Source: Zoogloeaceae bacterium (lineage in GTDB: Bacteria > Pseudomonadota > Gammaproteobacteria > Burkholderiales > Rhodocyclaceae). From it: DNA of 54,592 nucleotides. The notes beneath the pieces were generated by a model. That model saw nothing but the letters and a program-made list of their open reading frames with translations. It did not search any database and had not been told where the DNA came from. The stretch lies in assembly GCA_031287525.1 (NCBI GenBank), contig JAITSU010000091.1, positions 1-54,592 of the forward strand, written 5' to 3'. Positions 26,596 through 30,794 of this stretch are shown here, piece by piece. Position numbers and translations under genes: made by a program. How positions within the stretch are numbered: position 1 is the stretch's first letter; each line of letters begins with the position of its first letter.

Positions 26596-26611
26596 TGGCA
26601 CGCCTTTCGCA
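26596..26611 (+). promoter_or_regulatory. Sigma-54 promoter of the RNA-repair operon
   Basis: TGGCACGCCTTTCGCA matches the -24/-12 consensus TGGCACG-N4-TTGCW with one mismatch and has exact GG-N10-GC spacing. It lies upstream of the tRNA-like elements and the slipin gene and faces away from rtcR. Bases 26433-26595 are AT-rich, hold no gene, and are the expected place for RtcR enhancer sites. I could not recognise the site sequence. Confidence 0.8.
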
Positions 26612-26740
26612 ATAGATACCTTGAGCAAGATGTTTTTCAGCATGGCTTACAGGCAGGGGTTACTCGCCCCGCCGGTGCGCGAAAGTCGGTTTTCGCTGTC
26701 ACGTTCGCGTATGCCGCCCGTTGAAAACGCTTTGTTCACC

Positions 26741-26810
26741 TTTTGGAACGCCTGGCGGTCAGGCAATTGGCTCATCGCTGATGCAGGCGGGTTCGATTCC
26801 CGCTCCAAAA
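26741..26810 (+). tRNA. tRNA-like cloverleaf 1, CAT anticodon position, non-canonical
   Basis: Seventy bases fold as a full cloverleaf. The acceptor TTTTGGA/TCCAAAA pairs perfectly over 7 bp. The linker is AC. The D arm is GCCT-GGCGGTC-AGGC. The anticodon arm ATTGG-CTCATCG-CTGAT pairs with two wobbles, with CAT at 34-36. The variable loop is GCAG. The T arm GCGGG-TTCGATT-CCCGC is perfect. Oddities: it begins with U instead of G, has no encoded CCA or usual discriminator (the next element starts at once), and carries CG at 37-38. It lies within the predicted RtcR-controlled transcript. It is more likely a tRNA mimic than a decoding tRNA. Confidence 0.7.
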
Positions 26811-26878
26811 TTGGATAGCTCAATGGGTAGAGCAGTCGGCTAATAACCGATAGGTCGTGGGTTCGACTCCCACTCCAA
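26811..26878 (+). tRNA. tRNA-like cloverleaf 2, AAT anticodon position, non-canonical
   Basis: It abuts element 1 with no spacer. The acceptor TTGGA/TCCAA pairs over only 5 bp (extending to 7 gives two mismatches). The linker is TA. The D arm is GCTC-AATGGGTA-GAGC. The anticodon arm GTCGG-CTAATAA-CCGAT has AAT at 26842-26844. The variable loop is AGGTC. The T arm GTGGG-TTCGACT-CCCAC is perfect. An unmodified A34 Ile(AAT) anticodon is rare in bacteria, and the shortened acceptor and missing CCA argue against normal aminoacylation. D and T arms are strongly tRNA-like. It is part of the same transcript as rtcB. Confidence 0.7.
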
Positions 26879-27148
26879 GGCTACGTCACTGTAAATGACG
26901 ATTGAAAGTAACACCCGCTGGCTGCGGATGGCGGAAGCCTCCGCCGCTGACCCGGCTCGACGCCCTGCCCGCGCGAGCGGCACGGTCCAAAGGCACGGAA
27001 GTTCGCAATGGGGTTGGACATTCGCGGCGGTCATATCGCCCGAACGAAAACCCGCGACGCCGACTTCCTCCTTACCCCGCCCCGCCCGCGCCGAATGGAA
27101 AGCCCGCCGGGTCAGCGACCCGCCAGCACCTTGATAAAGGACACGAAA
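26879..27148 (+). ncRNA. Possible structured leader between tRNA-like elements and slipin
   Basis: A 270-bp stretch without a convincing gene. Hairpins seen include CGTCA-CTGTAAA-TGACG shortly after the second tRNA-like element and GGCGGA-AGCC-TCCGCC at 26930-26945. It is GC-rich. One frame stays open into the slipin gene, but the slipin ribosome site (AAAGG before ATG 27149) marks the real start. It could be a processed noncoding RNA or simply a long 5' leader. Confidence 0.35.
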
Positions 27149-28285: not shown

Positions 28286-28357
28286 AAAACTTTGTCGGGT
28301 GGGCGTAGTGTTTGCCAAACGATTGCTCACCCGCGCAAAGCGCAGGAGATAAACACC

Positions 28358-28957
28358 ATGAAGAAAAAGAAGCCAAACCTTGCGCCAGAGCCGAAAAAAT
28401 CGGCAAGCGTGGCAAGCGTCAATCTTGCGGGACTGGATGCATGGAGCGCGGGTCGGATTAAATGGCGCAACTCTGATGGCGTTTATCATGACCGCAGCTA
28501 CCGCTGCTGCGATTGTCGTATGGAGTTCATCTGGGATGCCTGGGAACAAAAGGAATGGTTTGAAGAAATGAAAGGCGACGCCTTTTGGAGTTCCCCCGTG
28601 CGGTGCAGCGCGTGTCTCGCCAAAGCAAGATCCAAACCTGCGAAACGACGGAAGCGTGTGGAACGCGCGCCTGTCGACGCTACGAAATGGCAAGATTGGC
28701 GCACCCTTGAAACACGCTTCCCTGACGGGTTTTACTACGATACGCCTTACATTTGTCGTACCTGTGGAGAAGTAAAAATATGGACTGCCCTGCAACAAAA
28801 ATACTGGTTTGAAGAAAAAAAGGGACGCTCCGATACAAGCGCCATTTATTGTCTGGAATGCCGTGAAAAATACAGCCAGAAAAAGGCAGAAGCCCGACGC
28901 ATCAGCGCGGAAAGTTTGGCAAAGAAACGGGCGCGACAAGCCCAAAACAACACCTGA
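28358..28957 (+). CDS. Zinc-ribbon protein of the rtcB operon
   Basis: A 199-residue basic protein with two treble-clef-like zinc ribbons: YRCCDCRMEFIWDAWEQKEWFEE...CSACLAKAR (about 47-90) and YICRTCGEVKIWTALQQKYWFEE...CLECREKY (about 130-172). Each has a CxxC pair, an EQK/QQK-W/YWFEE helix and a second CxxC. This matches the zf-trcl type probable zinc-ribbon family. Lys/Arg-rich tails suit RNA binding. ATG 28358 follows GGAGAT. It lies 11 bp before rtcB, so it probably acts with the ligase. The molecular role is unknown. Confidence 0.85.
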   Translation: MKKKKPNLAPEPKKSASVASVNLAGLDAWSAGRIKWRNSDGVYHDRSYRCCDCRMEFIWDAWEQKEWFEEMKGDAFWSSPVRCSACLAKARSKPAKRRKRVERAPVDATKWQDWRTLETRFPDGFYYDTPYICRTCGEVKIWTALQQKYWFEEKKGRSDTSAIYCLECREKYSQKKAEARRISAESLAKKRARQAQNNT

Positions 28958-28968
28958 AAGGAAACACA

Positions 28969-30192
28969 ATGCAACACGATTACAACGTCATCACCCCCGA
29001 ACACGCCCGCCCGATTTTTCTCTGGACGCAAGGCGTGCCGGTAGAAGGCGATGCCGAACAACAACTCATTGATACCGCAAAAATGCCGTTTATTTTCAAG
29101 CATCTGGCGGTGATGCCGGATGTGCATCTGGGTAAGGGTTCGACCATCGGCAGCGTCATCCCGACCAAGGGCGCGATTATTCCCGCTGCCGTCGGCGTGG
29201 ATATTGGCTGCGGCATGATGGCGGCGCGTACCACGCTTGTCGCCGCCGATTTGCCCGATAGTCTGGCGGCATTGCGGAGCGCCATCGAGCGCGCCGTTCC
29301 GCATGGACGCGACATCACGCGCAGCAAACGCGATTCCGGCGCGTGGGGCGATACGCCCGCGAGCGTCGATACCGCGTGGGCGGCGCTCCTGCCGGGGTTC
29401 AATCGCATGACCGAAAAATATCCGCGCCTGAAAAACACCAATCACCATAAGCATCTGGGTACGCTGGGAACCGGAAATCACTTTATCGAGGTTTGTCTGG
29501 ATGAAGCCGACCGCGTGTGGTTCATGCTGCATTCCGGCTCGCGTGGCGTGGGGAATGCGATTGGCTCGCTGTTCATTGAACTGGCAAAACGGGATATGGA
29601 ACGCTACTTCATCAACCTGCCCAACCGCGATCTGGCTTATTTCGTGGAAGGCAGCGCGTCTTTTGACGATTATGTGGAGGCGGTTGGGTGGGCGCAGGAT
29701 TTTGCCCGCAAAAACCGCGATGTGATGATGGAAAACCTGATTGCCGCCACCCGTTCGGTCATCGAAAAACCGTTTTCGGTCGACGTGGAAGCCGTGAATT
29801 GCCACCATAACTACGTGCAGCGCGAAACCCATTTCGGTGAAGAAGTGCTGGTCACGCGCAAGGGCGCGGTGTCGGCGCAAAAGGGCGAACTCGGTATCAT
29901 CCCCGGTTCAATGGGCGCGAAAAGCTATATTGTGCGCGGATTGGGCAATGAAGAAGCCTTCTGTTCATGCAGCCACGGCGCGGGGCGCGTCATGAGCCGT
30001 AGCGAAGCCAAACGCCGTTTCACCGTGGAAGACCAGATTCGCGCCACCGAACACGTCGAATGCCGCAAGGACGAAGCGGTGATTGACGAAATCCCGATGG
30101 CGTACAAGGACATCGACGCGGTGATGCGCGCGCAACGCTCGCTGGTGGAAATTGTGCATACCTTGCGGCAGGTGGTGTGCGTAAAGGGATGA
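28969..30192 (+). CDS. rtcB: RNA-splicing ligase RtcB
   Basis: A GTP- and Mn-dependent ligase that joins RNA 2',3'-cyclic phosphate (or 3'-phosphate) and 5'-OH ends, for example to heal cut tRNAs. It has 407 residues. The metal and active-site motifs are intact: MPDVHLGKGSTIGSV, GVDIGCGMMA with the metal-binding Cys, NHHKHLGTLGTGNHFIEV, HSGSRGVGN, NCHHNYVQRE, and SCSHGAGRVMSRSEA, containing the guanylylated His. GAAAGGA precedes the ATG. No rtcA cyclase or prfH is present. It is co-transcribed with a slipin and a zinc-ribbon protein. Confidence 0.95.
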   Translation: MQHDYNVITPEHARPIFLWTQGVPVEGDAEQQLIDTAKMPFIFKHLAVMPDVHLGKGSTIGSVIPTKGAIIPAAVGVDIGCGMMAARTTLVAADLPDSLAALRSAIERAVPHGRDITRSKRDSGAWGDTPASVDTAWAALLPGFNRMTEKYPRLKNTNHHKHLGTLGTGNHFIEVCLDEADRVWFMLHSGSRGVGNAIGSLFIELAKRDMERYFINLPNRDLAYFVEGSASFDDYVEAVGWAQDFARKNRDVMMENLIAATRSVIEKPFSVDVEAVNCHHNYVQRETHFGEEVLVTRKGAVSAQKGELGIIPGSMGAKSYIVRGLGNEEAFCSCSHGAGRVMSRSEAKRRFTVEDQIRATEHVECRKDEAVIDEIPMAYKDIDAVMRAQRSLVEIVHTLRQVVCVKG

Positions 30193-30794
30193 AAATCATG
30201 TTGGAAACACTGGAACATCAAGGAATCGCCAAACTTCGCCAGCGCCTTCAGACGGCGGATTGCGTATTCGATTTCGTTGCCTATCGCGTTACTGGTCATG
30301 CCACGCCTGATGAAGAAACACATCGTCAGGCGTTGACTGGCTTGTTCGCGCAGATTGATGAGCGTGAGAAACAGTATTGGCGTGAACTAGCCTTGCGCGA
30401 GCCGAAACATCTTTCTTACTGCGAACAACAGCTCGCACGGAAATGGGCAGAAAGCACCAAGATAGAGGACGCCAAGGCACACAGGCTGACGCCAAAAGAA
30501 ATTGAGACACTGGTAGCCAAAGATTCAGAGCTGGAACGCGCCTTCCGCCACCCGCCTTCCGACACAAAATTAAACGCTAAGGATTTTGCCGACTGGCTGA
30601 ATACCCTGCGGATGATTCCACGCGAAGGCGTCGAAGTGCTCAATTGGGTCGGAGTGTGGTACAAAAATCCCGATAGCAGCAATTGGAGCGACTATTTCGA
30701 TGACGGCAAGGAATGGTGGGGCATCTGGTGTCTGACCATTTACAACCCGAAGCAACGAACCCTTAGCGCACTAGCCGCCAGCGCCACGGATTGA
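30189..30794 (+). CDS. Unknown protein coupled to rtcB
   Basis: A 201-residue soluble protein with no domain that I recognise. It is rich in charged helices in the first 130 residues (LEHQGIAKLRQRLQTADCVFDF, EREKQYWRELALREPKHLSYCEQQLARKW, TPKEIETLVAKDSELERAF). It ends in a Trp-rich region (LNWVGVWYKNPDSSNWSDYFDDGKEWWGIWCLTIYN). ATG 30189 overlaps the rtcB stop codon, so translation is coupled; an internal ATG three codons later is also possible. Its position makes it a candidate accessory of the RNA-repair response. Confidence 0.7.
   Translation: MKIMLETLEHQGIAKLRQRLQTADCVFDFVAYRVTGHATPDEETHRQALTGLFAQIDEREKQYWRELALREPKHLSYCEQQLARKWAESTKIEDAKAHRLTPKEIETLVAKDSELERAFRHPPSDTKLNAKDFADWLNTLRMIPREGVEVLNWVGVWYKNPDSSNWSDYFDDGKEWWGIWCLTIYNPKQRTLSALAASATD

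Follow-up and report, generated by a model that had tools for sequence, protein, structure and literature searches.

A conserved structured RNA with two tRNA mimics upstream of slipin in RtcR-associated RNA-repair operons

Introduction

What are two abutting tRNA-like elements doing between the promoter and the first gene of an RNA-repair operon? The question arises from a 54,592-nucleotide (nt) contig of a Zoogloeaceae bacterium (GenBank assembly GCA_031287525.1, contig JAITSU010000091.1), which was analyzed as a whole and is called the window below. It carries, in this order, a divergent rtcR, a sigma-54 site, the two tRNA-like elements, and genes for a slipin, a zinc-finger protein, the RNA ligase RtcB and an uncharacterized protein. 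SPFH proteins, slipins included, form membrane assemblies, and repair operons carry tRNA mimics, the Y RNA YrlA among them. An RNA with well-defined, conserved domains that belongs with a single slipin family makes the use of these assemblies and the role of the mimics testable.

Comparison of the window with related loci makes it nearly certain that the two tRNA-like elements form the central part of a single conserved, structured RNA of ~490 nt upstream of slipin. Comparative folding shows four conserved structural domains in this RNA (D1 to D4, Table 1), two of which are tRNA mimics, and the RNA probably functions in the repair machinery and is not a set of spare or dead tRNA genes.

Results

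Conservation of the RNA

The comparison used the best 80 of 556 slipin relatives from a species-genome collection, a sample that leans to near relatives and consists, by titles, mostly of Beta- and Gammaproteobacteria. Together with the window these loci made 81 rows, 66 of which fit the D3 pattern, and 51 distinct D3 copies were kept. D1 and D3 were counted in 78 loci, two of the 80 having less than 475 nt upstream. D1 was present in 76 of these and D3 in 74; both were found in 72 and no locus was without both, D1 being unmatched in L089 and L104. Independently of model building, 31 D1 and 24 D3 matches remain.

The D1 covariance model (R1) gave 81 matches in 89 sources, each within its own source and 5′ of slipin; these counts include 46 model sequences and three loci counted twice among the matches, and four contigs entered twice among the sources. 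No stray D1 match was found at E 0.05 in 1.0 Mb of loci. In 74 of the 78 loci the D3 model (R2) matched at a corresponding position, D3 starting 280–393 nt before the slipin ATG. R2 also picks up real tRNAs, and the D1 model was therefore chosen for specificity.

Slipin orthologues above about 40% identity occur in nine of 100 genomes searched, the window's included, and ARAGORN or Rfam finds tRNA-like elements upstream of slipin in seven of these. The two exceptions are L003, which starts where its contig does, and L008, in which the D3 model matches with 41.6 bits. Across the 80 loci, 52 have an ARAGORN tRNA-like gene starting 200–450 nt before slipin, and an alignment of 43 leaders shows conservation throughout, from promoter to slipin. 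A D1 scan of 40 relatives returned five matches with E <1e-6, one in G014 at E 0.009 and a marginal one in G064 at E 0.06. Five of the six relatives with D1 also have the orthologous slipin; the sixth, G001, has its D1 at the end of a contig. The same scan gave no D1 match in G074 and G075, two genomes with distant slipin orthologues; the G075 locus (L007) has a weak match of 20.8 bits. A whole-class scan, in which 13 candidates were scored per genome and D1 was found in one of 369 genomes, is uninformative on distribution. By these alignments and matches, the recurrence of the RNA at the same place in other genomes is more than chance, and its carriers include named Pseudomonas, Burkholderia and Acidovorax strains. 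One locus, from Stenoxybacter acetivorans (L097), has a slipin 95% identical to that of the window; part of its D3 is deleted and neither rtcR nor rtcB was matched in the vicinity, an apparent case of recent transfer and decay.

Structure of the RNA

An earlier note on this DNA, made from the letters and their open reading frames, had described two abutting cloverleaves. In the whole 54.6-kb window ARAGORN indeed reports exactly two tRNA-like genes, at 26741–26811 (anticodon CAT) and 26809–26881 (AAT), but only the second element reaches the cut-off of the Rfam tRNA model (model positions 3–68 of 71). The first, D2, is a T-arm-bearing mini-tRNA in most relatives and cloverleaf-like in the window, L031, several Pseudomonas and L112; its T-arm motif was found, at the expected place, in 65 of the 71 rows inspected for it. 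With regard to the permuted tRNA-like fold of YrlA (T arm, capped acceptor, D arm), base pairs between the 3′ acceptor strand of D2 and the 5′ one of D3 are conceivable in the window and L031, a pairing that, judged by eye, seems not to be general in loci with a mini D2.

In D3 the acceptor, anticodon and T stems covary: 95.6% of cells are paired, 142 cells are changed on both sides against 39 in shuffles, and the numbers of doubly changed pairs and of pair types were equalled by 3 of 500 shuffles. D1, in which the motifs GGTGC and ATG-CGC are without variation, has 86.5% of cells paired and 151 cells changed on both sides (46 in shuffles); its 13 of 22 pairs with a double change are not unusual, being equalled in 76 of 500 shuffles. 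For D3 and D1 alike, the covariation score and the doubly changed cells lie above all 500 shuffles.

The earlier note had also placed a 270-bp leader ahead of slipin. The length from D3 to the slipin ATG (27149) is correct, but this stretch is occupied by the folded rod D4 and is no plain leader. In 22 sequences, mostly the window's kin and Rhodocyclales-like loci, RNAalifold scored D4 at −132, where shuffled columns gave −35 ± 4.7 (z −20.8). A composite alignment of D3 and the D4 start (A4) was poor across groups, and D4 was then analyzed per group, with z values of −12.0 in Burkholderia, −17.3 in Pseudomonas, −18.0 in loci lacking RtcR and −7.6 in Acidovorax. All five sequence groups share a stem that closes the domain, a hairpin at its side and a long rod. 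Double changes were seen in 17 of 84 pairs in Burkholderia, 37 of 76 in Pseudomonas and 34 of 67 in the RtcR-less loci. Columns were shuffled within gap classes; the structure and the counts share one alignment, which favors them, and the separate groups serve as the check. The Pseudomonas group takes in three D3-less loci, cut at a chosen start.

Table 1. Features of the slipin–rtcB locus (positions in the window)
Feature	Position	Strand	Basis and remarks
Sigma-54 −24/−12 promoter	26596..26611	+	TGGCACGCCTTTCGCA, GG-N10-GC, read from sequence
D1, 5′ hairpin domain	26652..26717	+	Covariance model R1, 70 bits
D2, first tRNA-like element	26741..26810	+	ARAGORN
D3, cloverleaf tRNA mimic, 5-bp acceptor stem, no CCA	26811..26878	+	Rfam tRNA, 58.1 bits
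Small hairpin 3′ of D3	26884..26900	+	Conserved, with compensatory changes, in the 22-sequence alignment
D4, rod-like domain of ~215 nt	26914..27129	+	RNAalifold; terminates just 5′ of the slipin ribosome-binding site
Slipin (SPFH/Band_7), constant partner of the RNA	27149..28285	+	Pfam Band_7, 113.6 bits
Zinc-finger protein zf_Tbcl (optional in relatives)	28358..28957	+	Pfam, 64 bits
rtcB, RNA ligase	28969..30192	+	Pfam RtcB, 435.8 bits
Uncharacterized gene 3′ of rtcB	30198..30794	+	No Pfam family above cut-off
rtcR, CARF-AAA-HTH sigma-54 activator	23779..25434	−	NCBIfam RNA_repair_RtcR (NF038308), 826 bits, cut-off 650

D3 compared with ordinary tRNAs

Judged by its pattern of conservation, D3 is no tRNA: the tRNA elbow, made of the D and T arms, is kept and the decoding anticodon is not. 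All eight D-stem positions and six of the seven T-loop positions reach 2.00 bits, against a mean of 0.54 for the anticodon loop. The anticodon arm has 17 nt in 28 of the 51 distinct copies and is shorter or, once, longer in the other 23; in 13 copies the loop has 4 nt, and 11 of these loops are GNRA or UUCG, while the 28 loops of normal length hold 14 different triplets. On the slipin tree the anticodon-arm label switches at least 11 times. With the D stem invariant, the T loop nearly so and the anticodon arm varied, selection acts on the elbow and not on the decoding end.

The acceptor end departs from that of a tRNA gene as well, since D3 has about five pairs in place of a 7-bp acceptor stem, its outermost pair (3–79) formed in 27 of 51 copies. 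No 3′ CCA follows D2 or D3 in the window, whereas CCA is encoded in 19 of 19 sampled tRNAs of this genome, and among the 43 tRNA-model matches of the genome D3 alone falls short of the full model. The window copy itself has a 7-nt anticodon loop on a 5-bp stem, but a loop and stem of this size with a conserved identity are not kept across copies. These non-tRNA features disfavor decoding and, as a general role, service as bait for anticodon nucleases.

Could the elements nonetheless be spare or decayed ordinary tRNA genes used in translation? ARAGORN labels both as tRNA genes, and true tRNA arrays, mostly with CCA, occur upstream in some relatives. We find the idea hardly credible in view of the missing CCA in the window, the short acceptor, the anticodon arms with tetraloops, the mini form of D2 and the strong conservation of the whole as one RNA. 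The conserved layout in relatives likewise rules out the case of decayed prophage tRNAs, which the earlier note had named among the cases that would undo its reading.

The upstream arrays are of interest in themselves. Six loci (L056, L058, L080, L086, L093 and L045) have 3–18 ordinary-looking tRNA genes, mostly with CCA, within 6 kb upstream of slipin, and L007 has four more upstream tRNA genes. Together with the Anabaena TrcR regulon described below, such arrays suggest that spare tRNA sets are linked to repair operons.

Association with slipin, RtcR and RtcB

The RtcR/sigma-54 repair operon with tRNA mimics in its 5′ part, as the earlier note had read it, is conserved in relatives. rtcB lies downstream in 62 of the 68 loci having at least 3.7 kb from the slipin start, and a divergent rtcR is found in 61 of the 69 having at least 2.4 kb upstream. 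The promoter with GG-N10-GC spacing is borne out at 26596–26611, and a TGGCA(C/T)-type pattern with this spacing occurs −440 to −640 from slipin in all 63 loci with rtcR in the fetched DNA, the window counted. A relative of zf_Tbcl follows slipin in 12 of 68 loci.

Ten loci keep the RNA before slipin while their fetched DNA yielded neither RtcR nor a sigma-54 site; in four of them less than 2.4 kb of upstream DNA was available. All ten fall within one well-supported 24-row branch of the slipin tree, and at least three changes are needed on the tree (73 labelled rows). Five of these loci (L056, L058, L075, L080 and L091) have an HNH-type open reading frame that terminates ahead of D1, and Pfam identifies an HNH_5-type endonuclease gene at L056:4887-5477 and L093:3015-3593.

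A reduced form of the leader occurs in E. coli and Citrobacter slipin operons that lack rtcB. The Citrobacter operon comprises rtcR, slipin and a nucleotidyltransferase gene, with no rtcB, and in the E. coli region slipin is directly followed by a nucleotidyltransferase (annotation), the 530 nt before slipin being too short for rtcR. Both leaders have the sigma-54 site, a GGGG/CCCC hairpin and one T arm, and match the D3 model over 15 nt (the T arm) only, at E 0.08. The E. coli slipin stretch, reduced leader included, is matched over at least 80% of its length in 1617 of 5426 genomes. Nucleotidyltransferase genes are listed at L078:9392-10192 and L118:6134-6922, and in Pseudomonas such a gene (Pfam RlaP) follows. 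As the RNA is kept in loci where RtcR was not found, and its reduced form, a T-arm remnant, in operons lacking rtcB, the RNA follows slipin rather than RtcR or RtcB.

The ten RtcR-less loci bear directly on the role offered by the earlier note, in which anticodon nucleases cut the mimics and the cut RNA decoys the toxin or presents cyclic-phosphate ends to RtcR. RtcR is reportedly activated by tRNA fragments bearing cyclic phosphate (PMC9879122), Hughes et al. propose YrlA as a competitive inhibitor of a nuclease (PMC7790460), and within the 11-row kin clade of the window the loop triplets differ (AAT, GTT, GAT, TTT, CAT), a pattern that an arms race might produce. However, the anticodon arm is the least conserved part of D3, nearly half of the distinct copies are without an arm of tRNA length, and fragments of Salmonella YrlA are described as not detected (PMC7790460). 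Because the loop is dispensable and the RNA is retained without need of RtcR, we regard bait or sensor as improbable; neither bait for a tRNA-cutting toxin as a general role nor a ligand for RtcR is upheld by these loci.

Proposed role of the RNA

We tentatively propose, as the best of the readings considered, that the RNA is an elbow-mimic adaptor for slipin and the repair machinery, a reading that may well be right although we place it somewhat short of an even call. A single RNA of ~490 nt would be made from the sigma-54 promoter ahead of slipin, and it would serve slipin as YrlA serves the Rsr ring and polynucleotide phosphorylase (PNPase). YrlA is described as a tRNA-like RNA that tethers Rsr to PNPase and is modified by DusA and TruB (PMC8394870). 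The Pseudomonas aeruginosa SPFH gene PaFlo8 is reported to lie in the rtc locus (PMC13086221) and is presumably this slipin, since strain PA7 carries one (L059). PA4582, named within the rtcB operon (PMC8619066) and reportedly induced 3.2-fold by hydrogen peroxide (PMC1250226), is presumably the same gene.

The fixed position of the RNA, always directly 5′ of slipin and in the same orientation, suits a role in cis equally well and is the first of several points that weigh against an adaptor. As a cis-acting regulatory leader, the mimics would be bound by slipin, zf_Tbcl, RtcB or a tRNA-processing enzyme that sets translation or processing of the operon, and damaged tRNA would compete and lift the block. 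The model for such control is the thrS leader, on which threonyl-tRNA synthetase acts. The narrow spacing of D3 from the ATG and the termination of D4 just before the ribosome-binding site speak for it; in the consensus fold, however, the D4 helix closes 5′ of the Shine-Dalgarno stretch and leaves it uncovered. We rate a cis-acting leader as a real but minority possibility and as the chief rival of the adaptor.

Traces of CCA raise a further difficulty for the adaptor. Of 73 rows, 8 carry CCA close to where D3 ends and 51 carry it at the D2/D3 junction or close by, against a background of 0.13 per 10-mer, so aminoacylation or CCA-dependent processing may occur and the 3′ end of D2 may still resemble that of a tRNA. 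Cuts at D2 and D3 by RNase P or another enzyme of tRNA maturation might free the 5′ RNA from the slipin mRNA, as the junction CCA, the abutting elements and their intact elbow features would allow. Such a processing signal would leave D1 and the long D4 rod unexplained and would have to act on the short acceptor stem of D3, and we think it very improbable.

The remaining points against the adaptor come from the loci themselves. D3 is lost and D1 kept in 4 of 78 loci (L070, L102, L109 and L082; three Pseudomonas, one Burkholderia), with at least three changes on the tree, so the cloverleaf is not indispensable. Some near relatives (L031, L032 and L035) have the RNA and slipin without a nearby rtcB match, as does L033, whose upstream part is off the contig. 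The D1 model has no match in the E. coli and Citrobacter leaders, and the E. coli case counts here too. In Acidovorax the sequences are near-identical and the support for D4 is weak, just 4 of 84 pairs being doubly changed. Finally, RtcA and RtcB are reportedly needed for RtcR action (PMC9650030), and no rtcA (PF01137) match was found in this genome, which is 94% complete. Of the marks of an RtcR-regulated RNA-repair operon, the window thus has the divergent RtcR, the sigma-54 promoter and rtcB, with the rtcA cyclase the one not found.

If the adaptor reading is extended, this RNA class, which has no Rfam model of its own, might be the dedicated RNA subunit of a slipin ribonucleoprotein; slipins would then be RNA-organized platforms that dock tRNA-handling enzymes for repair, with the E. 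coli version reduced. We consider this wider view possible but doubtful.

Other genes of the locus

The gene order given by the earlier note (slipin, zinc ribbon, rtcB, unknown gene) was matched by Pfam as Band_7, zf_Tbcl, RtcB and an orphan, its "zinc ribbon" being zf_Tbcl. NCBIfam RtcB models match the window RtcB, but under their cut-offs. Relatives of the last gene stand at the same position in three of 80 loci (L076, L078 and L081); the predicted structure of its protein has a mean predicted local distance difference test score of 60. In L036 rtcB is located upstream, and in three of the window's kin (L034, L038 and L039) the downstream rtcB match is only about 29–35% identical to that of the window, which suggests replacement by another RtcB type.

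RtcR also scores 859 bits with PADLOC RtcR and 267 bits with Pfam RtcR. It faces away from the operon, as noted earlier, but a DUF3828-like gene (25431–26432, minus strand) sits between it and the promoter in the window; in the other loci with rtcR, rtcR begins about 600–760 nt from slipin. No relative of the DUF3828-like gene was found in the 80 loci by tblastn. Judged by eye, this gene consists of two similar halves. A phage origin was considered and rejected, since a search of 50,697 phage records with the slipin returned nothing at E 1e-20.

Comparison with known systems

In the scanned loci Rfam sees the tRNA-like pieces alone, or nothing, so annotation would show a long, featureless leader and a false tRNA gene whose anticodon is arbitrary. 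The earlier note knew of no description of this exact layout, a statement that may go too far. Burroughs and Aravind, in a 2016 review, reportedly already link a tRNA-like RNA to SPFH/Band-7 RNA-repair modules, and D3 is probably that Band-7-linked molecule. A full-text literature search, outside which Burroughs and Aravind 2016 and Chen 2014 lay, returned no description of this RNA, and we do not claim its absence from print. The present comparison contributes the RNA with all its domains, the observation that it is retained without RtcR or RtcB, the decay of the anticodon arm and the E. coli form.

Like the E. coli and Salmonella rtcBA operon, the locus combines RtcR with its CARF domain, a sigma-54 promoter and RtcB; it differs in having slipin, zf_Tbcl and a structured RNA, and in that no rtcA was found in the genome. 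The Anabaena TrcR regulon is described as placing rtcB, a slipin gene and a spare tRNA (trn) operon under joint control (PMC10272220). Unlike the present operon it is repressor-based, with its genes apart on the genome, and the available part of that account mentions no tRNA-mimic leader (PMC10272220). Transfer-messenger RNA (tmRNA) and other large bacterial RNAs resemble this one in their hundreds of nt and in a tRNA-like domain joined to other folds, but the tmRNA model matches a 17-nt T arm only, at 17 bits (cut-off 47).

The comparison with YrlA drawn in the earlier note holds only in spirit. Identity with YrlA (RF02553) was rejected: the Rfam model scores 34.2 bits over the D2/D3 junction, against a gathering cut-off of 69. 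YrlA is given as 90–150 nt (PMC8394870), whereas this RNA has four domains over ~490 nt, and the partner of YrlA in rsr-yrlBA-rtcBA operons is Rsr, where slipin stands here and no Rsr/Ro (TROVE, PF05731) match was found in this genome. What the two RNAs have in common is that each is a non-coding mimic of the tRNA elbow from an RtcR/sigma-54 repair operon, encoded beside a ring- or scaffold-forming protein.

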